Assembly: GCF_001904745.1 (NCBI RefSeq)
Contig: NZ_MRCD01000004.1
Location: forward strand, 62,001-126,000
Direction: 5' to 3'
From: Calothrix sp. HK-06
GTDB taxonomy: Bacteria; Cyanobacteriota; Cyanobacteriia; Cyanobacteriales; Nostocaceae
Length of the DNA: 64,000 bases
Positions 26,194 to 48,673 of the stretch are shown piece after piece. Below the pieces are notes generated by a model, which did no database searches, was not told the origin of the DNA, and was given only the letters and a program-made list of their open reading frames with translations. Both the position numbers and the translations under genes were made by a program. Numbering within the stretch: the stretch's first letter is position 1; each line of letters starts with the position of its first letter.

Positions 26194-27258
26194 ATGATGC
26201 TCGCCGATAAAGTTAGTACTTCTAGCACCGAACTGCGTCCAGCGCGCGTTTGGATGCCAGAACGAGTAGTGTTTACACCCGCAGCACTTGACGAACCTTG
26301 GGGACAGAAGATTAAGCAGCGTATCGAAGCGCTCAATTTACCTATTGAAGAGTTGCCACGTAACCGTCTTACTGGTTTACGCGGAGAAACTGAGCGCGAG
26401 ACTTATGATATTTCTAAGCGTACCCTTGCTGTAGTAACGGCGCCACCAAGTCAGTTTAAGCTTAGTCCTATTCCACCTTCTGCTGACTGGCAGTTTCATT
26501 TAGCTGAGGGTTGTCCAGCACATTGTCAATATTGTTATTTAGCTGGCAGTTTAAGTGGCCCACCAGTAATTAGAGCATATGCGAACTTACCACAAATCTT
26601 AGAGAACTTAGCTAAATATGAACGACCTGGAAAGGCTACTAGTTATGAGGTTAGTTGTTATACTGACCCGCTTGGTATTGAGCATTTAACGGGTAGTTTA
26701 GCTGAGTGCATTCGTTATTTTGGTACTCGTGAAGATGGTTATTTGCGTTGGGTATCGAAGTTTGATGCTGTAGAACCACTTCTAGATTTACCGCATAATG
26801 GACATACTCGCTGTCGAGTCAGTGTAAATGCGGCGCCTATTTCTGGTAGGTTTGAAGGTGGTACTGCATCAGTTACATCTCGGTTGATGGGACTGCGAAA
26901 GTTAGCATTGGCGAAGTATCCAATTGGGTTAGTAGTGGCGCCAATTATGCCAATGGAAGATTGGGAAATGCACTACAGTAATTTGTTTGACCAAATTAGC
27001 AATACATTAGATTTTGAATGTGATTTAACTTTCGAGTTAATATCGCACCGCTTTACACCTGGTTCCAAAGAAGTATTACAAACCTGGTATCCCCACTCAA
27101 AATTAGATATGGACGAAGAAAAGCGCAGCGTTAAGCGTAATAAGTTTGGTGGTACTAAGTACGTGTACGATAACGATATTATGAAGAAACTACGCCGCTT
27201 CTTTGAAGGTGAAATTGGGCGCCGTTTCCCCAACGCCAAAATCCTATACTGGACTTAG
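26194..27258 (+). CDS. Radical SAM protein, spore photoproduct lyase family
   Basis: 354-aa protein with the cluster motif C-P-A-H-C-Q-Y-C-Y at residues 107-115 (C107, C111, C114), which binds a 4Fe-4S cluster for S-adenosylmethionine cleavage. L-A-E-G-C-P before it and the C-terminal S-H-R-F-T-P-G-S-K-E block (about 282-291) match spore-photoproduct-lyase-like (SplB) proteins, which in non-sporulating bacteria are of uncertain substrate; repair of UV-induced thymine lesions is only a possibility. ATG at 26194 is followed by a second ATG. It is divergent from agrE and ends at a hairpin shared with the convergent MBL gene. Confidence 0.82.
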   Translation: MMLADKVSTSSTELRPARVWMPERVVFTPAALDEPWGQKIKQRIEALNLPIEELPRNRLTGLRGETERETYDISKRTLAVVTAPPSQFKLSPIPPSADWQFHLAEGCPAHCQYCYLAGSLSGPPVIRAYANLPQILENLAKYERPGKATSYEVSCYTDPLGIEHLTGSLAECIRYFGTREDGYLRWVSKFDAVEPLLDLPHNGHTRCRVSVNAAPISGRFEGGTASVTSRLMGLRKLALAKYPIGLVVAPIMPMEDWEMHYSNLFDQISNTLDFECDLTFELISHRFTPGSKEVLQTWYPHSKLDMDEEKRSVKRNKFGGTKYVYDNDIMKKLRRFFEGEIGRRFPNAKILYWT

Positions 27259-27283: not shown

Positions 27284-27314
27284 TTGTGGAATGGGCATCC
27301 TTGCCCGTTCACAA
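27284..27314. terminator. Bidirectional hairpin, GGGCATCCTTGCCC repeat family
   Basis: Inverted repeat with arms from TTGTGGAA at 27284 to TTCACAA ending at 27314 and a TCCT loop. It lies between the convergent radical SAM and MBL genes. The MBL stop codon (27309-27311 on the minus strand) lies inside the right arm. Related copies: 34907, 35491, 35533. Confidence 0.75.
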
Positions 27315-28337
27315 ATCAATTTTACCTTTACACGCAGGATATTTGAACCCAGAAATAATACCTTCATGCTCCGTCTCTGTTTTCAAATCCCATTTACCAG
27401 AAGTTTCAGCACGGATTGTAATTTCTCCTGCACATTGCTGCGCTTTCTCTAATCCTGATTTACCCATTGCAGTACGTTTACTGGCTGAATGAACACATGT
27501 TCTAGTCACTTCTGTACAAACAAATTTTTCCAACTTTTTCGATTTATCATCTTTTTGATCCAACAAAAGTTTAAATAGCTCTGGGACAACATGCCCGTAT
27601 GTATTAGTACTACCTACAGATAGAACAGCCATTTCCGCATCAATTGTTTCAAGCAAATCCTTAAGGTCATCTCCATTCTTTGGGTATGCTCCATGATGCG
27701 GAATTTTTACGATGTTCGCGTTTAATTCATCTGGTTGGCAAATTTCAATACATTCTTTTAGTCCGGCGCCTTCTATATCTGCCAGTAGCAATGCAGCAAA
27801 GGCGCCATATGTAACGCGCAGCACTAGAGAAATTTCATTGAGTTTGGCGCTAGTTTGTGCTAAATGTTTTTCAATAAATAATTGTCTTGGATGTAAAACA
27901 TTAATTTGTAAATTTCCATGTGAGAATTGATTAGAATAGCGAGTAGCAGGTAGAAAGCGGATAATATTTTTTCTATCCCAGTTATCAAGACGATTTAATG
28001 CGAGTTCTAATCGTTTATACTCAGCACTACTTCCTCGGTGGCTTAATAGTTTTTCAACTGCATATTTATAAAAACAGTAAGGGAGACAAAATGTTTCTAC
28101 CTTTCCATGTTTTAGCCAAATATTAAGAAATTCTACAAGCTTTACAAGTGGTGGAACATGGTCGTGATGTGCGTGAGTAATATATATTCGGTTGATATTT
28201 TTTATATTTTTAGTTTGCAACCATTTATCCAGAAGTCGGGGTTTACCAAGGTCAACAACAACTGTTGAATTATCTTCGGTAGATATAACTATACTATCAG
28301 CATTTCCTACAGGTAGAAACACAACCTCGCATGTCAT
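27309..28337 (-). CDS. MBL-fold metallo-hydrolase with C-terminal Cys-rich tail
   Basis: 342-aa metallo-beta-lactamase-fold protein, related to the ComEC C-terminal hydrolase domain. Metal ligands H-A-H-H-D-H at 55-60 are followed by L-L-A-D-I-E (about 207) and K-I-P-H-H-G (about 229-234). A C-terminal segment with Cys at about 278, 284, 304 and 337 could bind zinc. Such proteins cut phosphodiester or related bonds and occur in many defence-type operons; the substrate here is unknown. The start overlaps the end of the upstream gene by 4 bp, so translation is coupled. It is the last gene of a three-gene minus-strand operon. Confidence 0.78.
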   Translation of the reverse strand: MTCEVVFLPVGNADSIVISTEDNSTVVVDLGKPRLLDKWLQTKNIKNINRIYITHAHHDHVPPLVKLVEFLNIWLKHGKVETFCLPYCFYKYAVEKLLSHRGSSAEYKRLELALNRLDNWDRKNIIRFLPATRYSNQFSHGNLQINVLHPRQLFIEKHLAQTSAKLNEISLVLRVTYGAFAALLLADIEGAGLKECIEICQPDELNANIVKIPHHGAYPKNGDDLKDLLETIDAEMAVLSVGSTNTYGHVVPELFKLLLDQKDDKSKKLEKFVCTEVTRTCVHSASKRTAMGKSGLEKAQQCAGEITIRAETSGKWDLKTETEHEGIISGFKYPACKGKIDL

Positions 28338-28933
28338 AGAAAATTCTCCATACTGTCTACCCTCAATTTCTGCTTCAGTTCGTCATTAGTTAAGTATGGA
28401 TATGGTGTATGGCGAAAATGTCGAAGTGCCCAAGGACGTTGAGCAAGTTCTTCAAAGGTTTCAATATCTTCGCTTAATTCAGCTTCAAACACAGTACTAT
28501 CAAGTGCCCAAGCAGGAATTTCTGGAAGAATTGGTAACCATTCTTCTTCGTTATCGTCTAATAAACCACTTAAATATAACTGTATTTGAGTTTTATCTAT
28601 TGAGATGTCTAAAATTTGACCAATCACAGTTAATGTAGGCTTGATTTGTTCCGATTTCCAATCCTTTAATTCTGGAGGTTCTCCTGTACGAGCTATCTCA
28701 ATCAAGCGCGGATTTCCATATGATTCCTCTACAATTTCATCTAATTGCTTGCGAAGTTCATCTGGTTCAAGAATAGGAAGATGATTTTTATCTAGTGTGA
28801 TAATTTGATGTGTAATATCAATAATGCGAGAGTCAACTTTTAATGGTAGAGGTAGTTGGCAAAGTGCGCCTTTAGTTAACCCACGGGTATTACGTCCAAT
28901 TAATGAAAGTTGACCAGCAAGCTTTGATGACAA
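28334..28933 (-). CDS. Fragment resembling the C-terminal part of an N6-adenine DNA methylase family protein
   Basis: 199 aa from a TTG at 28933, but the same frame stays open and protein-like up to about 28998 (G-W-E-T-L-N-Y-E-E-Q-R-L-W), overlapping the end of the upstream gene. The stretch L-G-I-L-S-S-K-L-A-G...G-R-N-T-R-G-L-T-K-G-A-L-C-Q-L-P-L-P and the later I-V-E-E-S-Y-G resemble the C-terminal target-recognition side of Eco57I/type II methylases (l-n-S-x-l-a ... g-x-l ... i-P-l-P ... i-D-x-x-V-y-x-x-Y-g-l). No S-adenosylmethionine or N-P-P-Y motif is present. An alternative ATG at 28962 with a good GAGGAG site is one base out of frame. Likely a decayed or frame-shifted gene; identification is tentative. 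Confidence 0.5.
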   Translation of the reverse strand: MSSKLAGQLSLIGRNTRGLTKGALCQLPLPLKVDSRIIDITHQIITLDKNHLPILEPDELRKQLDEIVEESYGNPRLIEIARTGEPPELKDWKSEQIKPTLTVIGQILDISIDKTQIQLYLSGLLDDNEEEWLPILPEIPAWALDSTVFEAELSEDIETFEELAQRPWALRHFRHTPYPYLTNDELKQKLRVDSMENFL

Positions 28934-28986
28934 AATTCCTAGTAGCCATAACCTTTGCTCCTCGTAATTTAAAGTTTCCCATCCTT

Positions 28987-29742
28987 CTATTCTTCTAGCG
29001 CCTTTTTAAAAAAACCATTTACGCGAGGGACTGTACGATTTAGTAAAGCACGAGGGTCGTTAGTTGGAATCTGTAAATTTGAACCAAAAAAACCTTTGTC
29101 CTCTAAAATTCGTGCTGCCATAAATGCTATTGCAACACGAATTCCATGTCCTGCTATTTCTGCACGAGAGGATATATAAGTAGGTGGGCGTGTTTGTTGC
29201 TTAGGAAGACCAACATCTTCAAGAACCCCCTGAATCGCTGTTTGAAATGCTCGATCCAGTTCCGCCCTTTGTCGAAGTAGAAAAGATAAACTACGCTCGG
29301 TAATTGATTCTTCTAAATCAGCGAGCGTTAGTTGACCAGTACGAAATTCTGCTAAAGCTTTTGGTGTAAATAGTTTGCTTCTTGGTTCTGCAAGCTCAAC
29401 TGCTAGAGACTCAGGCTCAATTTCTCGTTCTTCCAACCTACCAGATGGGTCAAGATATTGAAGTAGGATGTAGGATGATTCTGAAATTAACAGTCCTGCA
29501 CGAATAGGATAATGATTTAGCCTTTGTTTCCATTGTTCGATATTTGACTGCGAAACCAATTGCACCATAAATGCCAAGTTCGTTACGCTTGGACGAAGTG
29601 CATAATCCGTCCATAAGGCATCAATAGGTATTGGTTCGCTGTCACTATTTATAACTGGGGGAATACGCACATCTCGGTGCGGCGCCATGTTCCACACCCG
29701 ACAAGCTGTTTCAATTACATAATCAAGTCCCCGTCCAGCCAT
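28987..29742 (-). CDS. Fragment resembling the N-terminal part of a DNA methylase/restriction protein
   Basis: 251 aa, ATG start at 29742. The segment K-L-F-T-P-K-A-L-A-E-F-R-T-G-Q (about 130-144), the helix rich in R-A-E-L-D-R-A-F-Q-T-A-I-Q, and A-A-R-I-L-E-D-K-G-F-F near 215 resemble the helical N-terminal region that precedes the methylase core of type II-like N6-adenine enzymes. The frame stops directly after a T7A5 run (29009-29020) and the sequence continues in the -1 frame in the next gene. The expected catalytic core between the two parts is absent. It could instead be an intact protein of unknown family. It heads the operon with the MBL gene. Confidence 0.5.
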   Translation of the reverse strand: MAGRGLDYVIETACRVWNMAPHRDVRIPPVINSDSEPIPIDALWTDYALRPSVTNLAFMVQLVSQSNIEQWKQRLNHYPIRAGLLISESSYILLQYLDPSGRLEEREIEPESLAVELAEPRSKLFTPKALAEFRTGQLTLADLEESITERSLSFLLRQRAELDRAFQTAIQGVLEDVGLPKQQTRPPTYISSRAEIAGHGIRVAIAFMAARILEDKGFFGSNLQIPTNDPRALLNRTVPRVNGFFKKALEE

Positions 29743-29962: not shown

Positions 29963-30469
29963 ATGAACCAGGTGTCAGGTTTTACAAGACAAGAGACAAT
30001 ACATCTGGCTGGCTGCACATCAAGCAGACTTGCCTATCTAGAAAAAGTAGGTCTCATCATTCCCTATCGGTTTGGTAATAATGCAAGACCAACTGTGATT
30101 TTCAGTTGGGAGCAACTTCTAGAAATAAGGGCGATCAAAAATCTGAGAAAGGATGTCTCTCTACAAACGGTTAGAAAGTTAATTAAATTTTTAGACGATA
30201 GCGGCTATGACAACAGTTTACGGGATAAGCAGCTAGTTGTTGTTGGCGAAGAAATCTTTTGGGTTAAGCAAGACTGGTCAGACTTTGGGGAAAATCTGCC
30301 CACTGCCGTGAAAGTTGCAGGAAAAAGCGGTCAACAAGTGGGTCAGTATGTTTTGATTGTGATACCACCATTAATAGATATTGTGAACGAGATTTGGGAA
30401 GCCGCAAGAAAATCGAAAGTTGTAGATTTTAAAAGCTTTGAGAGAAGGGCTAAAGCTTTACCAGGCTAG
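29963..30469 (+). CDS. MerR-like DNA-binding regulator
   Basis: 168-aa protein. The first 75 residues read as a MerR-type winged helix: T-R-Q-E-T-I-H-L-A-G-C-T-S-S-R-L-A-Y-L-E-K near 8-28, K-V-G-L-I-I-P-Y (about 28-35), and an S-L-Q-T-V-R-K-L helix near 67. A degenerate domain rich in beta strands follows. Similar proteins often accompany toxin or antitoxin genes (DUF433 type), but no partner toxin is obvious. It is divergent from the methylase-like operon with a dyad in the shared leader, and convergent with the exonuclease gene (4 bp apart). Confidence 0.65.
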   Translation: MNQVSGFTRQETIHLAGCTSSRLAYLEKVGLIIPYRFGNNARPTVIFSWEQLLEIRAIKNLRKDVSLQTVRKLIKFLDDSGYDNSLRDKQLVVVGEEIFWVKQDWSDFGENLPTAVKVAGKSGQQVGQYVLIVIPPLIDIVNEIWEAARKSKVVDFKSFERRAKALPG

Positions 30470-30473: not shown

Positions 30474-31271
30474 TCACCCTCTGTTCTCCCAAACCTGTTT
30501 AATTACTCTTTTAGTAAATATCGAAAAATTTGCTTCCATCATCCAGTGGTAGTATCCAGGGTTTTTCAAAAGCACATCTACGATAGGTTGCCCTTTATAC
30601 TGACCAAAATTGAATATAAGATTACCTTGCTCGTCGGTAATTATTTTATTAGTAGGGTCAACCAAATTAAACGGCGTAAAATCAGCTAAACTATCTATAT
30701 TATTAGTTACAGGGTAAGATATATTTCCATCTTTGTCTTCATATGCTACATTCTCATACCGCAAAAGTTGAGCTTTGAGAACTTCGTATGTAGCAACAAT
30801 ATCATTTTCTGCATCATGGGCGCCCACTAATTCTTTTCCGCAGTATAATTTATATGCGGCTTTTAGTGTACGAGGTTCCATTTTATGAAATATTGTCATG
30901 ACATCGATAAATTTTTTGTCTTCAATATTTAATTGTATACCCACACGTGAAAATTCTATTACTAGCAAAGGGATATCAAACTTATTAGAATTAAACCCCG
31001 CAAAATCACCATCTTTAATATATTCTGCTAATTTTACAGCTATTTGGGCAAAAGTCGGCGCCTCTTTTACATCTTCATCATGTATATTATGTATCTTTGA
31101 GGCTCCTTCAGGAATAGAAATAGTTGGATTGAGTAGAAATTTTTTTATTTCCTGAGTTCCGTTAGAATATACTTTTAAAATTGCGATTTGTACAATTCTA
31201 TCTTGATTTATATCTACACCTGTTGTCTCTAAATCAATAAACACTAACGGACGTGTTAAATTTAACTTCAC
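30474..31271 (-). CDS. DEDD-family 3'-5' exonuclease
   Basis: 265-aa DnaQ-like nuclease. Motif I is F-I-D-L-E-T-T-G with Asp13 and Glu15; motif II is F-A-G-F-N-S-N-K-F-D (about 91-100); motif III is H-D-A-E-N-D (about 153-158), so it is of the DEDDh type. The last 60 residues (F-N-F-G-Q-Y-K-G-Q-P-I-V ... N-P-G-Y-Y-H-W-M) are the exodeoxyribonuclease X C-terminal domain found in many stand-alone exonucleases. Role in DNA repair or clearing of foreign DNA is inferred. The GTG start at 31271 has an AGGAG site 9 nt upstream. It lies next to the Dpd cluster but on the opposite strand. Confidence 0.88.
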   Translation of the reverse strand: MKLNLTRPLVFIDLETTGVDINQDRIVQIAILKVYSNGTQEIKKFLLNPTISIPEGASKIHNIHDEDVKEAPTFAQIAVKLAEYIKDGDFAGFNSNKFDIPLLVIEFSRVGIQLNIEDKKFIDVMTIFHKMEPRTLKAAYKLYCGKELVGAHDAENDIVATYEVLKAQLLRYENVAYEDKDGNISYPVTNNIDSLADFTPFNLVDPTNKIITDEQGNLIFNFGQYKGQPIVDVLLKNPGYYHWMMEANFSIFTKRVIKQVWENRG

Positions 31272-31508: not shown

Positions 31509-34500
31509 ATGATTCAAATTGGTTCACTAGTACGTTCGCTTGATAATGAACTAGGTACGGGAAAGGTAGTTCAACATAGTAATCAAGACGTAGTAGTTGA
31601 GTATTTCTGCTCAGTAGGACAATGTATTGAGGAAACAGTACCTTTAGATGAGTTGCGTCGGGTAACACTTCAGCGTCAAACTCGGTGCTATGTAAAGTCA
31701 GAGAGTGATAGATGGCTGATAGGAAGAGTTTTTGGTTGGGATGATTCGCACGGCGCCTATCAAATTGATTTGCCTGACAGTAAAACTTTGTTTGCTAGGG
31801 AGCGGGATGTATATGTTCGCTGCAATTTGCCTATCGAAGACCCTATCGATATATTGACCTATAAGGGTCAAGAAACGCCTTATTTCCACCAAAGACGTTT
31901 TGCGCTGGTGAAAAACCTAACTTCGCAACGCGCGGTTAGTCGGGGAATGACGGGGTTAATTTCTGCGAATATTGAGTTGCTGCGTCACCAGGTTGAAGTT
32001 GTACGTCGGGTACTTGAAGACCCTATTCAACGGTATTTGTTAGCTGATGAGGTTGGACTAGGAAAAACGGTTGAAGCAGGCGCCATTTTGCGTCAATATT
32101 TACTTGATGACCCAGAGAGACGCGCGATAGTATTGGCGCCGCAGTATTTACTCGAACAGTGGCGTACTGAGTTAAAGAATAAGTTTTATCTGTCGCATTT
32201 TCCCGATAGGGTAGTATTAGCAGCGGTTGAGGATGTTCACAAAGTTAATGCAAAAGCTGATATTGGGCTAATAATTATAGATGAAGCTCATCACGTAGCA
32301 GCAATGGCAAGGTCAACGGATGCAACAAAGCGCAGCAGCTTTGGAGCTTTTAAGAAGCTTGCTCACCAGTCAGAGCGGTTGTTACTACTTTCTGCGACTC
32401 CTGTCGTCAACAACGAGGAAGATTTTTTGTCAATGTTGCATTTGCTCGACCCGACAAACTATAAATTAGATGATTTGGAAGGTTTCCGTGACCGAGTGGC
32501 AAAGCGTCAAGATATTGGTCGAGTATTATTGTCGTTTCAAGAGGGTGCAAATCCTTTCGTTCTCAAAAATCAGGTTACACAACTTTGCAGTTTATTTCCC
32601 GAAGATAAATATTTATCAGATTTGGCAGAAAAGCTACAAAATTCTTTACAAGAAAAAACTGGTAACGAAAATAAAATAGTTAGAGCGATTCGCACTCATA
32701 TTAGCGATACTTATAGACTTTACCGTCGAATGCTGCGTAATCGTCGCGCTTCTGTAGAGGATGTAATTTTTGACAGGAATGTAGCGCCGAAAGCTGAGTA
32801 TGATTTAGATGAGCGTGTTTACGACATTCATGAGTTAATGGAAGAATGGCGTGGACTGGCGCCTGATAACTCAAACTATCACCGCATCTTTTTACTATTG
32901 TTCCGTGCCAGTGGTACTTGGTTAGGAATGTTACAGCAAGTTCTCGAAGCGCGTTTGAAGGGTAGTTTTCCTCAAGCGTTGACGAAAGAGTTTGACACAG
33001 ATAGTTTGAATATTCTGGCTGAAACTCCCAAATTCGACAAGGAAGAGGAAATTTTACAAGGTTTGCTAAAAATTCTTGAAAAACCCTCAGAAGATGGCGA
33101 CCGTTTGGTGTTATTGAGAATAGTAATACTTTACAAGCTCTCAGAAAACTTTAAACTCCAATCGTTCCGTAGTAATTTACCTAAGTTACTCGAACAAGTG
33201 CAATTACGGTTAAGAAGACCAATACCTGGAGATAAGCTACCAAAAATAGTGATATTTACCAGTTACGTGCAAGTTTGCGCTCAAATCATCAAGTTTTTGC
33301 GAGATAGCTTTGGAGAATCATGTATTGCGAGTCATTTACTTGGAGAACCACGAGCGCAAGTAGAAAAGAGTCTTGATAGATTTAAAAATGACCCTAACTG
33401 CTTTATTCTCGTTTGCGACTATTCGGGTGAAGAAGGTCGTAATTTGCAATATGCTGACTCGATGATACATTTTGACTTGCCTTGGTCTCCAAATCGTTTA
33501 GAGCAACGAATTGGTAGAATTGACCGTATTGGGCGCCAGTTGAATGTAGAATTTACAGTATTTGCAGGCGCCGAGATAGATGACAGTCCCCACGATGCAT
33601 GGTATCAATTGTTGAAAGATGGATTTAATATCTTTGAGCAGTCGATAGCAAGCTTCCAGTTTTATGTTGATGGGAAATTGCCAGAGCTAGAAGCAACTTT
33701 GTTTAAATCTGGGGCAAATGGGTTGTTAGAGAGTGTAGAGCAAGTTAAACAAGAAATAGGCGCCGAGCTTGTTAAAATAGACGAGCAAAACACCTTAGAT
33801 GAAATTAACGCTCTTGATGAAATAGCTAGTGAGTACTTTGAAAGCTTAGATAACTTTGACGCTCAACATCAAGAAATCGAGCGAGTCACCGAAGACTGGT
33901 TGTGTAACGCTTTACGGTTAAAGCAGCTAAATGACCCAAATGTCTCAGCAGCACAGCGTTATGAACCAACGCAGAAAACCCTAATACCCATTGACGATTT
34001 GAGAACTTACTTCGTGGGATTAACAAACGATGTAGGTACATATAACCGAAGAGTTGCCAATCAAAAACCCAACATCAACCTGTATCGAATTGGTGAAGGT
34101 TTAATCGACTCATTATCATCTTATATACATTGGGATGACCGAGGTCAAGCATTTGCCATGTGGCGAGTTGACGATACTTGGGACAAGGGCGAAGGTGCTG
34201 AATGGTTTGGTTTTAGATTTGACTACATTATTGAAACCGACCTAAGTAGTTATAAAATAGACCCAATCAAGTACAAAACACTACAACGTCGTGCAGATAG
34301 CTTATTTCCACCAATAATCCAAAGTATCTTCATCGACGCACGCAACGAGCCAATGAGCATTGTTGAAGACGAAGCACTGTTAGAAATATTACAACGCCAG
34401 TACAAAGGCAAAGGTAAACCGCCAATTAAACCGCCAATTAAAGCTGCCGATAAAGCTGCCGCCAAAACCGCGAGCAAAACACCTCCACCTGGCGCCAACA

Positions 34501-34895
34501 ACCAAGATTACAACCTAGCAAAAAGTCGTTTGCCAATACTAGATAACTTTATACACCCAGACGATTGGCAAGATTTTTGTCGCGACGCGCGTAACGCATC
34601 TGTAGAGTTACTAATTAGCCAAGATAACTTTATAGAAATGTGTGACAAAACAGCAGCAAGCGCAGAACAAAAACTAGGAAGACGACTCGAACAACTGCGT
34701 TTACGTCTCAACCGCATCAAGCAACAAGAAAAAATGATCGACAAATCACTAACCCAAGAAGTAATAGAAGAAGCCAAACTCAACCAAGCAATAATAGAAG
34801 GTATCCGTCACCCAAATATTCGCCTTGACTCCGTAGGCTTCATTATCGTTTCTGGGCGCCCTCCCGCTCAAGGAGGAGAAGTAGAAGACTGGTAA
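31509..34895 (+). CDS. dpdE: DpdE-like SNF2/RapA-type helicase
   Basis: 1128-aa Swi2/Snf2 helicase. Signatures: N-terminal SH3-like part (1-60), Walker A D-E-V-G-L-G-K-T at 180-187, D-E-A-H at 258-261, S-A-T-P near 297, and the helicase C motif Q-R-I-G-R-I-D-R-I-G-R near 670. A Pro/Lys/Ala-rich linker with repeated P-P-I-K near residue 980 precedes the C-terminal coiled coil. Its length and its place before a RecQ-like helicase, an ATPase, a giant helicase and a PLD protein match DpdE of the 7-deazaguanine DNA restriction system, which is also related to DrmD of DISARM. Role: translocation on DNA during restriction of unmodified DNA (family knowledge). Confidence 0.78.
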   Translation: MIQIGSLVRSLDNELGTGKVVQHSNQDVVVEYFCSVGQCIEETVPLDELRRVTLQRQTRCYVKSESDRWLIGRVFGWDDSHGAYQIDLPDSKTLFARERDVYVRCNLPIEDPIDILTYKGQETPYFHQRRFALVKNLTSQRAVSRGMTGLISANIELLRHQVEVVRRVLEDPIQRYLLADEVGLGKTVEAGAILRQYLLDDPERRAIVLAPQYLLEQWRTELKNKFYLSHFPDRVVLAAVEDVHKVNAKADIGLIIIDEAHHVAAMARSTDATKRSSFGAFKKLAHQSERLLLLSATPVVNNEEDFLSMLHLLDPTNYKLDDLEGFRDRVAKRQDIGRVLLSFQEGANPFVLKNQVTQLCSLFPEDKYLSDLAEKLQNSLQEKTGNENKIVRAIRTHISDTYRLYRRMLRNRRASVEDVIFDRNVAPKAEYDLDERVYDIHELMEEWRGLAPDNSNYHRIFLLLFRASGTWLGMLQQVLEARLKGSFPQALTKEFDTDSLNILAETPKFDKEEEILQGLLKILEKPSEDGDRLVLLRIVILYKLSENFKLQSFRSNLPKLLEQVQLRLRRPIPGDKLPKIVIFTSYVQVCAQIIKFLRDSFGESCIASHLLGEPRAQVEKSLDRFKNDPNCFILVCDYSGEEGRNLQYADSMIHFDLPWSPNRLEQRIGRIDRIGRQLNVEFTVFAGAEIDDSPHDAWYQLLKDGFNIFEQSIASFQFYVDGKLPELEATLFKSGANGLLESVEQVKQEIGAELVKIDEQNTLDEINALDEIASEYFESLDNFDAQHQEIERVTEDWLCNALRLKQLNDPNVSAAQRYEPTQKTLIPIDDLRTYFVGLTNDVGTYNRRVANQKPNINLYRIGEGLIDSLSSYIHWDDRGQAFAMWRVDDTWDKGEGAEWFGFRFDYIIETDLSSYKIDPIKYKTLQRRADSLFPPIIQSIFIDARNEPMSIVEDEALLEILQRQYKGKGKPPIKPPIKAADKAAAKTASKTPPPGANNQDYNLAKSRLPILDNFIHPDDWQDFCRDARNASVELLISQDNFIEMCDKTAASAEQKLGRRLEQLRLRLNRIKQQEKMIDKSLTQEVIEEAKLNQAIIEGIRHPNIRLDSVGFIIVSGRPPAQGGEVEDW

Positions 34896-34906
34896 ATAAC
34901 AAGTGG

Positions 34907-34929
34907 AACGGGCATCCCTGCCCGTTTTT
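34907..34929 (+). terminator. Rho-independent terminator after dpdE
   Basis: Perfect stem AACGGGCA (34907-34914) / TGCCCGTT (34919-34926) with loop TCCC and then a T-run, 12 bp after the dpdE stop. It uncouples dpdE from the rest of the cluster. It is a member of the same repeat family as 27284 and 35491. Confidence 0.85.
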
Positions 34930-35026
34930 AACATTCAAATGTGGGGTGGAATGGCGCTTACTTAACGTATTAATGGTGCATGAAAGCACTGTATTTTACG
35001 TTACATTGATTGAAAGGGCTGCTTTC

Positions 35027-35098
35027 ACGCACCCTACCGAATGCGCGTTGGCACCTTAAAATGCTCTTTGTAAATGATATTCCAATGTAGGGTGCGTG
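35027..35098. repeat. Inverted repeat with 12-bp CACGCACCCTAC arms
   Basis: Perfect 12-bp arms 48 bp apart, with a degenerate third half (GTCACGCACC) about 40 bp further on. It is typical of small non-coding mobile elements in cyanobacteria, but no terminal direct repeats were verified. Confidence 0.65.
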
Positions 35099-35490
35099 AT
35101 GCCACGAAAAAATTTCAACGTAGTTATAGACTGATAGCGTCACGCACCAACTATTATTTTTTACCACAAAGACACTCTCAACACAGAGAAAAAAGCAAAG
35201 TACGGCACCTTGAGTATGGGCAAAAGCCATGTACAGCAATACGTTTATAAAAATTATAAGCAATTATCTACTTACATGACCCTTGTGGCAAAATTACAAC
35301 AGTACATGTTAGACTCATGGGAATACGATAATTTTTCTTAGCTGCTAGTGCATTTAAATTTTACTTATTGTTGATAAGCCCGGATTAGTACGTTTGCCTT
35401 ATCAAAATAACTGGCGCACGTAATCAGTTCATATAAAATTTTGTATTCCCTATTTTATCTTGTTATCTTATTTATCTTGTTCTCTTGTGG

Positions 35491-35547
35491 AACGGGCATC
35501 CTTGCCCGTTTGTAATATTGAAATTTATAGGACGGGCAGGGATGCCC
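35491..35547. repeat. Two GGGCATCC-type hairpins facing each other
   Basis: Hairpin at 35491-35510 (AACGGGCA/TGCCCGTT) and a reversed copy around 35533-35547 (GGGCAGGGATGCCC), flanked by TTGTGG at 35485 and CCACAAG at 35551. The whole segment is an inverted pair of the family seen at 27284 and 34907. Confidence 0.75.
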
Positions 35548-35843
35548 ATCCCACAAGATGCATCATAAGATGTATAATTACTCCCCAAGATTACTATTTT
35601 ATTTTCACAAATATTAAACTGCTGGCGCCGTTATCATTGTCAAACCATTCAGTATAAGTAGTATTACGAGTACGAAAAATTACAGTTGGCAAGTTGAAAA
35701 ATAAAATGTTACAAAAAATTGACTGGACTTAATCCGGATTTAATATTTTTTTGATGAATAGACTTGGCTAATATTAATCGTATTAGTTAAATTACTTAAT
35801 ATAAATAGATAAATATTATACATAAATGAAGCAGTGATAATTT

Positions 35844-38393
35844 ATGACAGATTCGTTTGCGGAACTGCAAGAAATTCTCGAAACAGGTAACATTCCTGAA
35901 GATACAAGACATATTACAGAACCTTGTCATCGGCGCCTTCTCGATGCATTACTTAATAATGCTGCTGCGGGAGATATTGCGAGTTTAGTACGTCATGTAC
36001 TGCGACGAGAAGATGAAAAACAGGGTGGAAGTTCTTCGACTTTTATAAAAGTATCTCGTAAACCTCTTTTTCCAAAGCGTGAAGTTTGGGAAAAAAGTAG
36101 TATAACAATTTTCAATGGTGACGATGATAAATATTACATGATTAGCGCGCGTCCTTGGAAACCAGAATGGCTAGATATTGTAAATGAATCTCCAGATAAA
36201 GCTGTTTTTAAAGAGGAACTTCGGCGAAATTATGATTATGTCGCAGGAGACCCGTTTTTAAAGCTTATGGGTTTAGATAATTATCGCAGTGTTGGTCAAC
36301 GAAGTGCGATTCATAATATTTTGACGGCGCCTGTTGACGCTACTTTAATAATTAATCTACCTACTGGTTCAGGAAAAAGCCTTTGCGCGCAGTTACCAGC
36401 TTTGTTAAATTCGGAACATAGAGGTGTAAGTATAGTAGTAGTGCCAACAACAGCACTAGCGATAGACCAAGAAAAAGGATTGAAGTCTATTATTAAGCAT
36501 GATACGGCTTATTACAGTGATGATAGCTTAGAGGGGAAAGAACGACGTGAGGCAATACGCACACGAATTCGTGAAGGTACTCAAAGGATTATTTTTACCT
36601 CTCCTGAAAGTTTAATGGATTCACTGGCGCCTGCGTTATATGAAGCGGCAAAACAAGGAATTTTAAAGTACTTTATCATCGACGAAGCGCACATAGTTGA
36701 GCAGTGGGGAGATGATTTTCGTCCTGCTTTCCAAGAAATTCCAGGTTTGCGAAAAGATTTATTACGTCTTGGTTCTTTTACAACACTACTACTAACTGCG
36801 ACTTTAACCGAATCTTGTTTAGAAACCTTAGAATCATTATTTGGGAAAGACCTAAAAGTAATTTCTGCCGTACAGTTACGTCCAGAACCTTCGTACTGGT
36901 TTAAGCAGTGTAGAAACGAAGAAATTAGACAAGAAAGATTAATTGAAGCAGTATATAATCTTCCCCGTCCATTAATTATTTATGGAACTAAAGTTGAAGA
37001 TGTTCAAAAATGGAAAAAGGAACTTGCATGTGCAGGGTTTACAAGATGCGACTTGATGACAAGTAAATCTAGTCCTAAAGAGAGATTACAGCTAATTGAA
37101 AAATGGCGAAATAGAAAAATAGATATAGTAGTAGCAACTTCTGCATTTGGGTTAGGTATCGACCAAGCAGATGTACGTGCGGTTATTCATGTTTGTGTGC
37201 CTGAAACTATTGATAGATTTTATCAAGAAGTAGGTAGAGGTGGAAGAGACGGTAAAGCTTCAATCTCATTGATGCTGTATACAGAGAACGACATAAAAAT
37301 TGCTCGTGGTATTAATGATAATTCAGCCATCACTGTTGAAAGAGGTTTACAACGTTGGCAAACAATGTTTAATAATAAGCAAAGGGTTGATGATGGAAGT
37401 GGCAGGTATCGTGTTCCTGTCGATACACCCCCTACTTGGACAGAAAAAGATATTGATATGAGGGGTGGTGATAAAAATACTGCTTGGAATATTAGAACTT
37501 TAACTTTAATGAGTCGAGCAAATTTGATTGAAATCGATTTTGAAGAACCACCGTTAAAAAAAGACTTTGAGTTTGAGTCAGAAGAAGCATATCAAAAAGC
37601 ATGGCAAGATTACCGTAATCATAGAATCATTCGTATTTGTAATGATTCACATTTAGATAAATCTATCTGGGATTATGAAATTGAACCAATCCGTAAGCAG
37701 CGTCAAAGCAGTAGCTTTAAAAATATTAAGCTAATGGAAGAAGCTCTAAATGCAGAACGATGTATTTCAGAAATATTTGAAGAAGCATATGCAATTCCTA
37801 AACGTGGCATAGAAAAAGTTACAAATAGTGTGACTGTCTCTCGCGCTTGTGGGGGTTGTCATGTTTGTAGGAAAATTGGAAATCAACCGTTTCCAGGGAT
37901 TATGCCTGAACCAGGTTTGATATGGGAAAAACCCAATACATCATTAGGTGAAGAACTTGAACGCTTGTTATGGGATGAAAAATTATTGCTGATTTTTTAT
38001 GACTCGTTGAAAAATAAAGGCACTAAGAAGCGTCAAATAATTCGACTTTTTAAATGGTTTATTGAGCAGGGTATTAAGAATATTATTATTTCTGATGATA
38101 ACTTACAAGAAAGTTTCATTCAAGAATTAGACCAAGTATCAAGTAATTTTGTATTCACATGGCAAAAATATCAACCGATTAAAATGCCACGTGTACCAAC
38201 ATTAATTTTTTATCCTCAAAAGGGAAAAATACAGTCTATTAATTTTTTAAAAAATAGTATGTCTGAAACATTCAAAGTAATTTTATTATCTATAGATACA
38301 CCTGATCCCGCTAGGCAAGATAGAAAGTTAATTGACATGTCTAATGAGCGCTATTTTAAATTTGATGCATTCTGCACGGAGATTGGCATATGA
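35844..38393 (+). CDS. dpdF: DpdF-like RecQ-type helicase
   Basis: 849-aa superfamily 2 helicase. Walker A P-T-G-S-G-K-S at 173-179, D-E-A-H at 280-283, L-T-A-T-L near 315, and the RecQ-type Q-E-V-G-R-G-G-R-D-G motif VI near 472-481. A Cys cluster (R-A-C-G-G-C-H-V-C, about 668-676) marks a zinc site, and the C-terminal domain (690-849) is specific to DpdF. It is fixed in the Dpd cluster between DpdE and DpdG. The stop overlaps the dpdG start by 4 bp. Role: DNA unwinding in restriction of unmodified DNA, by family knowledge; no biochemical detail can be read here. Confidence 0.78.
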   Translation: MTDSFAELQEILETGNIPEDTRHITEPCHRRLLDALLNNAAAGDIASLVRHVLRREDEKQGGSSSTFIKVSRKPLFPKREVWEKSSITIFNGDDDKYYMISARPWKPEWLDIVNESPDKAVFKEELRRNYDYVAGDPFLKLMGLDNYRSVGQRSAIHNILTAPVDATLIINLPTGSGKSLCAQLPALLNSEHRGVSIVVVPTTALAIDQEKGLKSIIKHDTAYYSDDSLEGKERREAIRTRIREGTQRIIFTSPESLMDSLAPALYEAAKQGILKYFIIDEAHIVEQWGDDFRPAFQEIPGLRKDLLRLGSFTTLLLTATLTESCLETLESLFGKDLKVISAVQLRPEPSYWFKQCRNEEIRQERLIEAVYNLPRPLIIYGTKVEDVQKWKKELACAGFTRCDLMTSKSSPKERLQLIEKWRNRKIDIVVATSAFGLGIDQADVRAVIHVCVPETIDRFYQEVGRGGRDGKASISLMLYTENDIKIARGINDNSAITVERGLQRWQTMFNNKQRVDDGSGRYRVPVDTPPTWTEKDIDMRGGDKNTAWNIRTLTLMSRANLIEIDFEEPPLKKDFEFESEEAYQKAWQDYRNHRIIRICNDSHLDKSIWDYEIEPIRKQRQSSSFKNIKLMEEALNAERCISEIFEEAYAIPKRGIEKVTNSVTVSRACGGCHVCRKIGNQPFPGIMPEPGLIWEKPNTSLGEELERLLWDEKLLLIFYDSLKNKGTKKRQIIRLFKWFIEQGIKNIIISDDNLQESFIQELDQVSSNFVFTWQKYQPIKMPRVPTLIFYPQKGKIQSINFLKNSMSETFKVILLSIDTPDPARQDRKLIDMSNERYFKFDAFCTEIGI

Positions 38394-39268
38394 GCGTTTT
38401 AAAAACTAAACTAGCGCATCCCAGCCGAATGCGAGGAATATTTAGATATTTACTAACCATAAAGGGACAGAGAGAAAATATAGAAGTACTAAAGAAAATT
38501 ATTTCTCCAGATAAATTAGTAGAAGGTAAAAAGACACCTCGTCCAATGTTTAATAGTTCACTTAGGGAAGGTATTAAGTGTGGTCTCTTTATTGAAGACG
38601 ATCAAGATATTGCGATTAATCCAGACTTGCCAGAAGATGCAAAAAATCCTCAACTTGGTGACAAGTTACTGCCAGATACTCTAACTCGTCTATTGTTTGC
38701 TAATGATAACGAAGATGAAGAAGATTTTGGTCGAGTATGTGCCTGGTACTTAGCACAAGACATATATGATGCACCCGGAACTGAGCAAGAAGTTCAATCA
38801 TGCGTTAGTGAGCAAAAGGTTGGTGATTTTTTGAAAATGACTAGCGATGTTCTGTTTGACCAGATGGATGATTGGATGTTTTACTTGGGTTTAACGTGGC
38901 GCCATGCATTGGATAAGAAAACAGTATCTGTTCCTGACCCAACAAATTATTTAAAACGAAACATTAAAACTTTATTTAATGGTGGCAAAGAAGTTTTAAT
39001 CAAGGATTTTATTGCAAGATTATCACATCAATGTCCTTTATTTGAAACAGGTAAATTCCGCAATGAAGTAGAAAATATAATCGGTGCGCGTCTGCCTAGT
39101 TATCTATCTAGTAGCACAGCTTTTGCTTTATTTCGTCTCAGGGACGAAGGTTACATAAAACTTGCTCGAAAATCTGACGCTGACTTAATGATTCTGCCTA
39201 AGATAAATAATCAAGTGGATGACGACGGGCGAGTTTCTCATCTTATTTTACAGGAGGAAAATGTATGA
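38390..39268 (+). CDS. dpdG: DpdG-like protein
   Basis: 292-aa soluble protein without a recognised catalytic motif. The N-terminal part (R-M-R-G-I-F-R-Y-L-L-T-I-K-G, about 13-26) looks like a winged-helix segment. The identity rests on position: it overlaps the DpdF-like gene by 4 bp (ATGA) and the DpdH-like gene by 4 bp, exactly as in Dpd clusters. Its biochemical role is unknown; as a small adaptor for the DpdH ATPase it would fit the coupling. The overlaps imply equimolar production of F, G and H. Confidence 0.68.
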   Translation: MSVLKTKLAHPSRMRGIFRYLLTIKGQRENIEVLKKIISPDKLVEGKKTPRPMFNSSLREGIKCGLFIEDDQDIAINPDLPEDAKNPQLGDKLLPDTLTRLLFANDNEDEEDFGRVCAWYLAQDIYDAPGTEQEVQSCVSEQKVGDFLKMTSDVLFDQMDDWMFYLGLTWRHALDKKTVSVPDPTNYLKRNIKTLFNGGKEVLIKDFIARLSHQCPLFETGKFRNEVENIIGARLPSYLSSSTAFALFRLRDEGYIKLARKSDADLMILPKINNQVDDDGRVSHLILQEENV

Positions 39269-42200
39269 CATTTAAAAACTTTGTTTGTTGGGACTTGAAA
39301 AGAGTGCGTCAAGTAATGGATATTGAGGCAACCCAACCCGCAAATCATTTGTTCTTAGCAACTCATTATCCAATTACAATGTATCGGCAGGACTTGATAC
39401 AAAACAGTAATGCATCACAAATGCAATATGATGAAGAACAGTTTCTAAGAGATTTTATTGCAGAAAAAGATTTTGCCTTCGTTCCTGTACTAGGAAACTC
39501 TGGAACAGGAAAGTCCCATTTGATACGTTGGTTAGCGGCTAATATTAAATCAACAGATAAGCGTAAAGTATTGCTAATTCCTAAAATTGGAACCAATTTA
39601 AAAGACATTATCACCCTAATCTTAGAAGGAATGGAGGGAGAAAAATTTAATGAATATCGTCAAAGGGTAAATGAAGCAACGAATATAGAAACAGAAACTG
39701 AAGCAAGAGTACAACTACTAAATCAACTAGCGGCAGAGGTTGGAGATAACGGTAAAAAAGATAAAAATAAACTTACTGACGAGCAAATTTATCTTGTTGA
39801 AGAACTGGATTCATTTTTATATGACTCGCTTTTTCGCGAGTACTGGTTAAGAGATTCCGGTATTATTCACCGTCTAATTATTCATATTTTAGGTTATACA
39901 GAAAAAATAGAAATTATTGAAGAGAGGCGCCAATTTTCACTAGAAGACTTGCCTGTTGATATTCCCAACTTACAAGACGCTGGAAAAAAAGCTCGAGACT
40001 TTTATGGTTTTCTTATTGGTAACAGTAGTATTCAGAAAGCTACGGTTGATTGGTTAAACCAGCACTTAGATGAAGCGGTTACAAAAGTACTAAATTTAGG
40101 ACGAGAAGACTTACTTAGGTTGATGCGCGAAGTTCGGGAAACTCTAGCAGAGCAAGGTATCGAATTAATTTTGCTAATTGAAGATTTTGCTAAATTGCAA
40201 GGAATTGATAGAGAAGTACTAGAAGCAGTATTAGCGCGTCCTCAACAACCAGGAAGTACACCATTATGTGCAATACGAACAGCCTTAGCTTGTACAACAG
40301 GTTATTTTGAAGGATTAACAAATACATTCGATACTGTTAAACAGCGCGTTACTTTTAGCGTCAATCTTGATGTTGGTACAGTTAGTGAGCAGTCTATAAT
40401 TACCCAAGCTAGCCTTCAAAAATTTGTTTCTAAGTATCTTAATACTGTTCGCTTAGAGGATGAGGTTATACTTAGTTGGGCAAATTTAAATAATCAGGAA
40501 GTAAATTCTCAAAGCAAGCCCTTGATGAGCGCTTGTGATGAATGTGAACACCGTGAAGCTTGCCATAATGGATTTGGAAGTATCTCTGGAATCGGCTTAT
40601 ATCCTTTTACTCCAAAAGCTATAGAACAAATGTCAAAGAGAGTTAACGCAGGTAACTTTAACCCTAGAATTTTAATTAAGGACGTACTTAAATATGTACT
40701 GGAAAATGGATTAGAAGATATTAAAAAAGGAACTTTTCCATCAAGTAGTTTGCAAGAACACTTTGGCAAACAAAGACTAGACCCTTTTACTCAAGAAGAT
40801 ACTAGAGCTAAAGATCCTTATAATTTTAAGCGTCGTGAGACACTTATAGATTTATGGGATGATAGTAATCAGCTTATAGATTTATCACCTGAGTTACATA
40901 CTGCTTTTAACTTACCTTTGTTAGGAATTAAAAATCATTATACAGAAGTTACAAAGGTTACACAGCAACGTTATCTTAGTGATATTAAAAATACAACACC
41001 AGTAACAAAAAATGATGGTGCAAAATATAAAGTAGAAGTACGAGAAGTTGTAGAAATTCAAGAAAAAGTTATTCCAGATAAATTAGCAGAACAACTTCAG
41101 CAACTTAAGGATTGGAATAATAAAGGAGACTTATCTCAAGAAATAGCTAAAATATTGCGCGAATTTATTTATCCTGCTATTTTTGATAGAATTGATTGGG
41201 ATGCAGAAATGCTGCTAAAAAGAAGTTTTGCACGCGCGCCAAAACGTGCGAATAAACAAGACGAAGATGAACAAGAAGATAATTTAAACGATGAGAAAAG
41301 CAAGAAAATTTTTAAACAGAAAAACGTTATTTTTTATAGTCGCAGAAAAACTAATGATACTTTCTATGGAGTTGTATTAAAACTTCCTCTTAATCCTGAA
41401 GATGAAAAAGATTTCCGCGAAACAACTATAGCCTTTCAAGGCATTTTACAATATCAGCAATATAAAAACTGGAAGTTTCCTAACGGAGACCGTTACTTCC
41501 GTGCGTACAGCAAGCTATTAGATAAATGGAGCCAATATGTGCTAGATGCAATTCGTCTTTACCCACGCGAATCTGGAGATATTTGGAACCCAGTCCCTAC
41601 AGCAGTAGAATTATTAGCAATAACTACTACAATCACTGGGCATACAACTAATTCTTTAGAAAGCTTAATAAATGCTTTATTTCTTGAACCAGATAAAAAT
41701 AATAACACAACGCGCACAACAAGCTGGAAAGAACTCTCTGATTCTCTTAAAAAATGCCGTCCGGACTTATTAGAAATTGTCCAAAGCAGAATTGCTTGTA
41801 CTAAAGGCAGTTCAACTCAATTTCAAATTATTGATACTATTCAAATTATTGAACCTTTAGAAAAAATTAGAAAGTCCTGGCAAATTCAACATCATATTCC
41901 AGATGATATCTACAAAAAATTTCTGGAAAATCGTAATAGTTCATCTGAGTTTCATAAGCTTTGTAAGGCTTATCAGCAAGTCAATGAACTTTTGGAAGTA
42001 GCTATTCGAGAAGAATACAAGCGTCAGTTTGATATTTATGAATCATTAATACGAGATTTTGGCGAAAATATGAATAAAGATGGCGTAATTGATAGTTTAA
42101 AATTATCATTAGAAAATGCAGGGTATGCTGGAGTTGTACGTGGATGGAAAAAATTTGATGAAATGACGAAGATTATAGCCCAATTTCGACGTACTTCAAT

Positions 42201-42486
42201 TAGTGAATACCAAAAAACAATGAAGCGTGTTCAAATAGAAATGGAAACAAACAAGAACCTAGGTAAAGTTTTTCAGTTACTAAGTGAAGATAATGAAAAG
42301 GTGATTATAGAATCATCAGATTTTATACGTTATACAAATAATTTTCTTGACGCTTCTATTTTAGAAGCGCAAAACCAAATTTCTAATTTAAGCCAATCAG
42401 GAGGAGGTTTGGTCGAATCTTGCCAACAAGAAATTAAAGAAGGTTTGATAAATTTACAAAAATTCCTTAACGAAATCAAAGAATAA
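39265..42486 (+). CDS. dpdH: DpdH-like ATPase
   Basis: 1073-aa protein with an AAA+-like N-terminal domain: Walker A G-N-S-G-T-G-K-S at 77-84 and Walker B L-I-L-L-I-E-D-F near 301-308. A C-x-x-C-x5-C set (C424, C427, C433) in S-A-C-D-E-C-E-H-R-E-A-C suggests a zinc site. The C-terminal third is rich in coiled coil. This composition is that of the ATPase of the Dpd restriction module. It contains only one GGCGCC hexamer, near its N-terminal third, while the window average is one per 530 bp. The next gene follows after 5 bp. Substrate recognition is not visible. Confidence 0.78.
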   Translation: MTFKNFVCWDLKRVRQVMDIEATQPANHLFLATHYPITMYRQDLIQNSNASQMQYDEEQFLRDFIAEKDFAFVPVLGNSGTGKSHLIRWLAANIKSTDKRKVLLIPKIGTNLKDIITLILEGMEGEKFNEYRQRVNEATNIETETEARVQLLNQLAAEVGDNGKKDKNKLTDEQIYLVEELDSFLYDSLFREYWLRDSGIIHRLIIHILGYTEKIEIIEERRQFSLEDLPVDIPNLQDAGKKARDFYGFLIGNSSIQKATVDWLNQHLDEAVTKVLNLGREDLLRLMREVRETLAEQGIELILLIEDFAKLQGIDREVLEAVLARPQQPGSTPLCAIRTALACTTGYFEGLTNTFDTVKQRVTFSVNLDVGTVSEQSIITQASLQKFVSKYLNTVRLEDEVILSWANLNNQEVNSQSKPLMSACDECEHREACHNGFGSISGIGLYPFTPKAIEQMSKRVNAGNFNPRILIKDVLKYVLENGLEDIKKGTFPSSSLQEHFGKQRLDPFTQEDTRAKDPYNFKRRETLIDLWDDSNQLIDLSPELHTAFNLPLLGIKNHYTEVTKVTQQRYLSDIKNTTPVTKNDGAKYKVEVREVVEIQEKVIPDKLAEQLQQLKDWNNKGDLSQEIAKILREFIYPAIFDRIDWDAEMLLKRSFARAPKRANKQDEDEQEDNLNDEKSKKIFKQKNVIFYSRRKTNDTFYGVVLKLPLNPEDEKDFRETTIAFQGILQYQQYKNWKFPNGDRYFRAYSKLLDKWSQYVLDAIRLYPRESGDIWNPVPTAVELLAITTTITGHTTNSLESLINALFLEPDKNNNTTRTTSWKELSDSLKKCRPDLLEIVQSRIACTKGSSTQFQIIDTIQIIEPLEKIRKSWQIQHHIPDDIYKKFLENRNSSSEFHKLCKAYQQVNELLEVAIREEYKRQFDIYESLIRDFGENMNKDGVIDSLKLSLENAGYAGVVRGWKKFDEMTKIIAQFRRTSISEYQKTMKRVQIEMETNKNLGKVFQLLSEDNEKVIIESSDFIRYTNNFLDASILEAQNQISNLSQSGGGLVESCQQEIKEGLINLQKFLNEIKE

Positions 42487-42491
42487 ATATA

Positions 42492-43199
42492 ATGCTTATA
42501 GAAAAATCCAAGCAACTGATTCAATTATCTCAAGATAAGTTAAATCAAGAAAAAATCGCTAAGAATTTGCAAGTATTTCAATCAAGGCAAAAGCAAATCA
42601 CAGAAGCTGTTGCTACAACTCAAACAATTGTTGAGGCATTGCAAGGCTTTCGGAATAGAGGCATTATGATTACAGGAGGTTTACAAAAAGTAAATGATTT
42701 GCTATCTATAGTTGTTAATGCTGAAGCCGAATTTCAGAAAAACCCCGAATGGATTATTGGGGATGACAAATTTAAAGGTAATGAACTAAAATCTAATGTA
42801 GCAGCCCTAAAAAGTATAATTGAGCAGCAATTAAGCCGAGCCTGGAAGAACTATCTTGAAGAAAAAAAAATTCCTAATGCTAATAGTGAGATGTTAACTG
42901 TTTTAGAAAAAGTTAAAGGTTTTAAATTTACTATTCAACAAATTAGGAGTTTAGACGAAGATATTAAAGAAATTAAATTTCCTAAAAATAACGTTGACTT
43001 TGAAAAGTACGAACGAAAAATAGAACAGTTAAAGCAATGTTGGGGCAACCTTAATTCGGATGACGTACCTTTGGGTGTATTAGAATTGCTTAAAGCTGCT
43101 GCAAACCAAGGCGCCTCTTTAGAACTTCTGACTGATGAAGTTAAAGACTGGATTAAGAAGTATAATATTTCTGATTCGCTAAAAATCCGCTTGGTTTAA
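42492..43199 (+). CDS. Coiled-coil protein in the DpdI position
   Basis: 235-aa, highly charged, helical protein (K/E/Q-rich from residue 1 to 45 and 140-180) with no catalytic motif. It starts 5 bp after the DpdH-like stop and lies immediately before the small ORF and the DpdJ-like gene, which is where DpdI sits in known Dpd clusters; the identity with DpdI is inferred from position only. A structural or scaffold role is likely. Start codon ATG at 42492 follows closely on the preceding TAA without a strong ribosome-binding site. Confidence 0.5.
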   Translation: MLIEKSKQLIQLSQDKLNQEKIAKNLQVFQSRQKQITEAVATTQTIVEALQGFRNRGIMITGGLQKVNDLLSIVVNAEAEFQKNPEWIIGDDKFKGNELKSNVAALKSIIEQQLSRAWKNYLEEKKIPNANSEMLTVLEKVKGFKFTIQQIRSLDEDIKEIKFPKNNVDFEKYERKIEQLKQCWGNLNSDDVPLGVLELLKAAANQGASLELLTDEVKDWIKKYNISDSLKIRLV

Positions 43200-43201
43200 A
43201 C

Positions 43202-43369
43202 ATGGATAGAACTATTGCACCAGCCGAAGTAAGAGCTAAACATCTTGAAAATCTTAGAAAAACTCGTGCTGAGGTAGCAGTTGCAAACGAGATGATGGAT
43301 AAACTCATAGCACACCTTGATGCTCAGATTGCAGATCAACCTCAACGAACAAAACATTCGTCTTGTTAA
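43202..43369 (+). CDS. Small helical protein, 55 aa
   Basis: Reads M-D-R-T-I-A-P-A-E-V-R-A-K-H then E-N-L-R-K-T-R-A-E-V-A-V-A-N-E, ending at the TAA at 43367-43369. It begins 2 bp after the stop of the preceding gene, in the operon phase expected for a real gene, and has amphipathic helix character. No family is recognised. It could be a subunit interacting with the coiled-coil protein upstream. A 22-bp perfect palindrome follows 9 bp after its stop. Coding potential rests on context and composition. Confidence 0.6.
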   Translation: MDRTIAPAEVRAKHLENLRKTRAEVAVANEMMDKLIAHLDAQIADQPQRTKHSSC

Positions 43370-43378
43370 TTACAATGA

Positions 43379-43400
43379 GAGACGCGAAATTTCGCGTCTC
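43379..43400. repeat. GAGACGCGAAA perfect 22-bp palindrome
   Basis: Arms GAGACGCGAAA (43379-43389) and TTTCGCGTCTC (43390-43400) without a loop, between the 55-aa gene and the DpdJ-like gene. It is a member of the GTAGAGACG family; it could act as an intra-operon terminator or attenuator. Confidence 0.8.
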
Positions 43401-43463
43401 TACAATGCGCGATTTTATAAATAATTCAGGAATTATTCCCTGTTATAGAGAGTTTTGCGTTAT

Positions 43464-47963: not shown

Positions 47964-47964
47964 A

Positions 47965-48021
47965 CCGTAGGTTGGGTCTCCCTTCGGGAAAACTACGTTT
48001 ACGTTCCTCGACCCAACGGTT
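47965..48021. repeat. Imperfect GGTTGGGT hairpin with internal stem
   Basis: CCGTAGGTTGGGT (47965-47977) faces ACCCAACGG (48011-48019). Between them lies a perfect small stem CTCCC...GGGA (TCCCTTCGGGA). It begins 1-2 bp after the dpdJ stop and is a good terminator candidate that would separate J from K and D. Confidence 0.7.
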
Positions 48022-48151
48022 GCTCAGTTTGATTTTGATAGTAATGATAAGTATGGCCAAATGAAAGCTTATATTAGAAATTTAGACTACCTGCGTTTAG
48101 TTATTCTTGAATTTTTACGTCCATAAATTTAAAAAATGAATATAAAATAAA

Positions 48152-48661: not shown

Positions 48662-48673
48662 GATAAAACAGTG

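Follow-up and report, generated by a model that had tools for sequence, protein, structure and literature searches.

In a stretch of 64,000 nucleotides from Calothrix sp. HK-06 (hereafter the window), two neighbouring frames located beside a cluster of Dpd genes look like the two ends of a DNA adenine methylase whose middle is missing. This raises the question of whether they form a new kind of two-part protein or are what is left of a single gene, and, if so, which function that gene and its neighbours may have had.

The two frames are the ends of one methylase gene

Both frames described in a previous sequence-only reading are real, with 251 and 199 aa, respectively (Table 1). The upstream frame ends with a TAG stop at 28989-28987, 13 nt past a T7A5 run, and the plausible protein reported beyond this stop, G-W-E-T-L-N-Y-E-E-Q, is indeed encoded in the -1 phase, which follows from the coordinates. 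No family of Pfam, NCBIfam or PADLOC matched either fragment at E ≤ 1, so that the methylase family call could be tested on intact relatives only. By using a methylase profile of 915 positions, we found that positions 1-249 (E 1.4e-128) and 702-915 (E 1.0e-106) match the fragments, in order and on one strand, and that among the best two candidates scored in the HK-06 genome the profile gave these two blocks only. The connection between the two fragments is thus far beyond chance. The reported lack of an S-adenosylmethionine (SAM) motif and of an N-P-P-Y motif between the frames also holds: the window's own copy has neither the SAM motif nor NPPF, both of which fall in a deleted segment of 1,366 bp described below.

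The remnants are without visible erosion so far. The few changes that we could assign to the window branch were, as silent/replacement, 4/4 in the N part, 4/1 in the C part and 4/2 in the downstream MBL-fold gene. A scan for promoters and terminators returned sites that were no more numerous than in shuffled sequence.

Table 1. Features of the window around the split methylase gene
Feature	Position	Strand	Remarks
Spore photoproduct lyase family protein	26194-27258		Pfam SPL, 320.6 bits
Intact ComEC-like MBL-fold gene	27309..28337	-	342 aa; start codon overlaps the end of the methylase remnant by 4 bp
C-terminal methylase remnant	28334..28986	-	profile positions 702-915, E 1.0e-106; inside the 97.0% DNA block
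199-aa frame with TTG start	28334-28933	-	contained in the C-terminal methylase remnant
Deletion junction	28988..28989		base-by-base comparison with L007: 1,366 bp (L007 6752-8117) absent in the window
N-terminal methylase remnant	28987..29742	-	251 aa, residues 1-251 of ~920; TAG across the deletion junction; 95% protein identity to the intact L007 gene
Divergent MerR-like gene	29963..30469	+	168 aa; methylase neighbour in L007-L011, too, and on a plasmid of Pseudanabaena
DEDDh exonuclease, ExoX-like C-terminus	30474-31271		between the MerR-like gene and DpdE
Dpd genes D to K	31509-50926		

Relatives carry a single uninterrupted methylase gene

Searching 100 genomes (the strain's own and relatives) with the N part gave matches in six of them: the strain itself, four genomes in which the match is part of a 924- to 933-aa open frame (G003, G005, G018 and G033) and one, G020, in which the match is interrupted. 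By scanning genome contigs, we found 13 methylase loci. Twelve of them (L007-L018, with L007, L008, L009 and L013 belonging to G005, G018, G003 and G033, respectively) are uninterrupted genes that carry DPAAGSG and ANPP and that have, counted from the aligned start, 905 to 926 codons and no internal stop. The thirteenth, L019 (from G310), sits at a contig end and is broken, at points that differ from those of the window. The closest relative, Calothrix sp. PCC 7103 (L007), has a single ORF of 923 aa followed by an MBL-fold gene with the same 4-bp overlap as in the window; the methylase of Candidatus Viridilinea shows 36-38% identity. Hence the comparison with intact orthologues proposed in the sequence-only reading reveals one uninterrupted gene of about 920 codons in relatives, and a search for orthologues made of two separate core-less proteins found none.

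D335-P-A-A-G-S-G and N431-P-P do not vary across the alignment of the 12 intact sequences, and both lie within the part that the window has lost. The intact L007 protein passes the N6_Mtase family (PF02384, 30.4 bits for a cut-off of 20.4) but fails Eco57I (PF07669, 20.5 bits for a cut-off of 25.3). The earlier label "Eco57I-type" is therefore imprecise. The best PADLOC match of the intact methylase was a type I methyltransferase model. Since the AlphaFold model obtained from the 12 sequences was of low confidence (mean pLDDT 65, pTM 0.42), its fold matches were used as support only; the 50 listed by Foldseek were to CamA, M.BseCI, BpuSI, DrdV, BrxX/PglX, MmeI and one further MTase. Judged by family and fold, the intact gene is an N6-adenine DNA methyltransferase with a C-terminal target-recognition region.

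One deletion accounts for the stop and the frame change

At the DNA level, the window aligns to L007 in two blocks, one of 1,312 bp (95.6% identity) and one of 1,989 bp (97.0%), each of which takes in neighbouring genes, and the step between them is 1,366 bp. The breakpoint is 28989|28988, with 28989 being the last base of the left flank and 28988 the first of the right flank, and the TAG stop is made of one left-flank base and two right-flank bases. As 1,366 is 3n+1, that is leaves a remainder of 1, the frame changes in the window gene. These data show that the 1,366-bp deletion by itself accounts for both the frame change and the TAG stop, and the "core-deleted" reading can now be placed to the single base against L007. 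With L007 standing in for the ancestor, the edges of the deletion share no base. About 455 codons were taken out, including both catalytic motifs (DPAAGSG and NPPF), so that the window copy cannot methylate DNA. The missing 1,366 bp had no match in the strain's own assembly, where an earlier search with slightly wider core edges and without a control had likewise been empty; the same query was positive in four out of four control genomes.

Taking these observations together, the two frames are very probably the stumps of one N6-adenine methyltransferase gene after a single internal deletion of 1,366 bp, and the methylase half of the window is a recent pseudogene.

Other explanations of the split gene

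We weighed four other explanations against this reading. The sequence-only reading had considered a frameshift at the homopolymer and, as the stop comes 13 nt after the T7A5 run and is followed by a -1 frame, a slip in this run, either real or due to a sequencing error, could have split the gene. However, T7A5 is unaltered and in frame in L007, L008, L009 and L010, whose genes have no internal stop, and close variants of the run are found in the six further loci compared, all of them uninterrupted genes. Besides, the stop and the frame switch sit at the deletion junction, which leaves a slip next to no probability. The core might also have been lost during contig building, since the assembly is a draft of 243 contigs. 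Yet the junction lies within a contig of 217,586 bases, the core is in no contig of an assembly with a listed completeness of 99.98%, and similar lesions occur in other genomes, so that an artefact of assembly is very improbable. Heterocyst formers are known for excision elements in other genes and the host is close to Calothrix, which would fit a programmed excision with the core kept elsewhere, as in heterocyst-specific rearrangements. But the missing piece is not an insert, being the gene's own coding sequence in the 12 intact relatives, the edges (judged from L007) have no base in common and searching the assembly did not turn up the core; the chance of such an excision is negligible.

The alternative that would matter most for annotation is a functional two-part protein, in which a separate N part and a C recognition part would assemble into a methylase-free DNA-binding module guiding the MBL protein. 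Indeed, each stump still has an open frame (251 and 199 aa, respectively), and the C part, with its recognition region retained, continues into an MBL gene that is intact. On the other hand, the arrangement was found in no relative: 12 of the 13 loci are single uninterrupted genes, the remaining one (L019) is broken at other points, and so are broken copies elsewhere. Moreover, the C frame only has a TTG start and the change counts are too few for showing selection. We consider this assembly highly unlikely, and the "new two-part protein" offered in the sequence-only reading is unsupported; the split protein most likely reflects decay of the methylase gene.

The methylase is part of a MerR-methylase-MBL module

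The MBL gene of the window is intact. A gene of this kind lies directly downstream of the methylase in 11 of the 12 full-length loci, Candidatus Viridilinea included, and in all six genomes with an uninterrupted methylase match in a draw of genomes from the order (see below). L012, from Dolichospermum circinale, has the mirror lesion of the window, with an intact methylase and a core-deleted MBL in which approximately residues 1-27 are joined to 304-338 (L012 8760-8940). The MBL protein is closest to the beta-lactamase-like domain of ComEC, both by fold (9ic4, E 2.4e-12) and by profile (6e-19). Residues H55, H57, D59, H60, H149, D187 and H249, which we take to be metal ligands, are invariant in 12 sequences, including that of the window.

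A MerR-like gene adjoins the methylase in L007-L011, in the window and on a plasmid of Pseudanabaena galeata. It was not detected in L012-L018, of which L017 offers only 1.2 kb upstream. On the plasmid, MerR, an "N-6 DNA methylase" and the MBL gene (annotated "hypothetical protein") stand in one row, near a Tn3 transposase and an integrase. This is the one plasmid on which we found relatives; phage records and viral contigs gave none. As a separate observation, L013 has at 4784-5671, upstream of the methylase and where other loci carry the MerR-like gene, a 295-aa frame for which neither Pfam nor PADLOC gave a family at E ≤ 0.001; L014 and L015 have equally long frames.

From the observed gene order and the predicted functions, we infer that the ancestral methylase belonged to a small module made of a MerR-like regulator, a methyltransferase and a ComEC-like MBL-fold hydrolase. 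We found no name for this module among family models or in the open-licence literature, as far as listings and abstracts tell. The mildly novel part of the locus is this module and not the split gene.

Broken methylase genes elsewhere in the order

A methylase match (E ≤ 1e-30) was found in 11 of 388 genomes drawn from the order, a lower bound given that scoring was limited to the two best candidates of each genome. The gene is full length and uninterrupted in six of them (G305, G033, G195, G318, G185 and G112) and broken in the other five, namely the strain itself (G000), G310, G184, G020 and G398. In G310, residues 1-36 run into 196-414 and residues 416-470 into 821-923, on two short contigs; in G184, 275-605 lies beside 802-896, with stops; G020 has scattered pieces with stops. 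The G398 gene starts at a contig end and its match ends around residue 350, with the contig continuing for at least 4.7 kb.

The MBL profile matched nine of the 388 genomes, again a lower bound (best five candidates per genome scored). The protein is full length in the six genomes with an intact methylase as well as in the window; G310 and G020 have a partial match, G184 and G398 none. The window is therefore the sole case in this draw of a full-length MBL gene with a dead methylase. That a cell lacking a working methylase carries a full-length MBL gene hints, if weakly and in a single genome, that the MBL protein by itself does not act as a nuclease that freely attacks unmarked DNA.

The Dpd neighbourhood

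In the window, Dpd D, E, F, G, H, J and K score above their NCBIfam cut-offs, and DpdI below (46.9 bits for a cut-off of 150). DpdA is the base-inserting enzyme of the Dpd system. It had no match in the strain's own genome, and the window set thus differs from a Dpd system as defined by DpdA in the genome. This is the rule in the order, where DpdA was above cut-off in six of the 71 genomes having DpdE. Dpd-like restriction sets without the base-modifying enzyme are worth study in their own right.

Within the flanks fetched around the 12 full-length methylase loci (up to 6 kb, shorter at contig ends, e.g. upstream in L011 and L017), DpdE was present in two, L007 and L009, both from the genus of the window, and adjacency of methylase and Dpd was seen only in this genus. 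At the genome level, DpdE is if anything slightly commoner with the methylase: it is above cut-off in 71 of the 388 genomes and in five of the 11 with a methylase match (2/6 uninterrupted, 3/5 broken), for a hypergeometric P of 0.033 that ignores the relatedness of the genomes. DpdJ is above cut-off in eight of the 388, one of which, the strain's own, has a methylase match. With scoring again limited to the two best candidates of a genome, these counts of DpdE, DpdJ and methylase are lower bounds.

We looked at the state of the Dpd genes in four of seven genomes of the genus. Two same-genus relatives have damaged ones (L061 and L063, in G005 and G006, respectively). In G005, DpdJ is matched from residue 409 only (1-408 unmatched) and DpdD to 245; in G006, DpdJ ends at 723, DpdF is split and only a MerR remnant stands at the place of the module. 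In G003, the 19.9 kb retrieved beyond DpdE, in the direction in which others carry their Dpd genes, contained no further one. Such damaged sets could suggest that the module and Dpd may not keep well together. We dropped this conflict reading because an intact methylase coexists with Dpd genes in three genomes: G018 has the intact methylase and MBL pair (L008) alongside Dpd frames (L064, as fetched) of which E and J are open and enclose matches to F to I, and G033 and G318 have an intact methylase together with DpdE.

Two further genes recur around the region. L007 and L009 also have the DEDDh exonuclease of the window, and G006 has it in two pieces. A spore photoproduct lyase gene, here in a cyanobacterium, adjoins the region in L007, L009 and G006 as well.

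Comparison with known systems

With DPAAGSG and NPPF, the intact relatives resemble N6-adenine methyltransferases that carry a recognition region of their own (M.BseCI, CamA) and type IIG/IIL enzymes (BpuSI, DrdV, MmeI), with all of which Foldseek aligns the low-confidence methylase model. They differ from them in being paired with a separate MBL-fold gene, and the window copy in having no core; no nuclease motif was spotted by eye in the N part of the methylase. As for PglX/BrxX of BREX, DISARM class 1 and ARMADA, a large methyltransferase stands near two helicases, one RapA-like (here DpdE) and one YprA-like (DpdJ), and such sets have been described for DISARM and ARMADA (PMC12458937). However, the PADLOC PglX match of the intact methylase reached only E 0.028, and DpdE was in the fetched flanks of just 2/12 loci.

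The MBL protein has both its best fold match and its best profile match in the beta-lactamase-like domain of ComEC but, unlike ComEC, it is a stand-alone protein of 342 aa and the partner of a DNA methyltransferase. We rejected the 6A-MBL anti-phage system as the identity of the intact pair. Its MBL model (NF058524) matches the window protein weakly, at 31.1 bits for a cut-off of 220, and its own partner model is 6A-MBL_cap2_3, a Cap2/3-like protein and not a methylase. Among six genomes, this partner (NF058523) was above cut-off in G005 only, on contig C1 with the methylase on C7, and it had no match on contig C178 of the strain's own genome. The best PADLOC match of the MBL protein was the LmuA effector of Lamassu (PDLC03854, E 9.6e-16). 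Unlike in Lamassu, neither LmuB nor LmuC turned up among the neighbours covered by a general family scan.

A possible restriction-modification-like mechanism

The methyltransferase of the intact module would read and mark a DNA site, and the MBL protein would cut DNA when directed or licensed by it. In this mechanism, loss of the methylase is survivable despite an intact MBL gene because cutting by the MBL protein would depend on the methyltransferase, a survival argument drawn from one genome. MBL-fold proteins act on many substrates besides DNA. The pairing of the methyltransferase and MBL genes is observed, and the nuclease role of the MBL protein is predicted. A restriction-modification-like mechanism is the candidate that we favour for the intact module, at somewhat less than even chances. 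It is unlikely, though worth stating, that the module is an undescribed restriction-modification-like defence whose ComEC-type MBL nuclease cuts when guided by the methyltransferase and not by itself. If so, the window would be a natural methylase knock-out with its cutter left without a guide.

What the locus means

The split gene is a case of ordinary gene decay, and its annotation as a two-part protein is unwarranted. The intact module of its relatives, which ties an adenine methyltransferase to a ComEC-like MBL protein, is perhaps worth following. With its methylase naturally knocked out and its MBL gene intact, the window bears on whether the MBL protein alone attacks unmarked DNA: if this protein were an independent restriction enzyme, the genotype of the window should be hard to survive.
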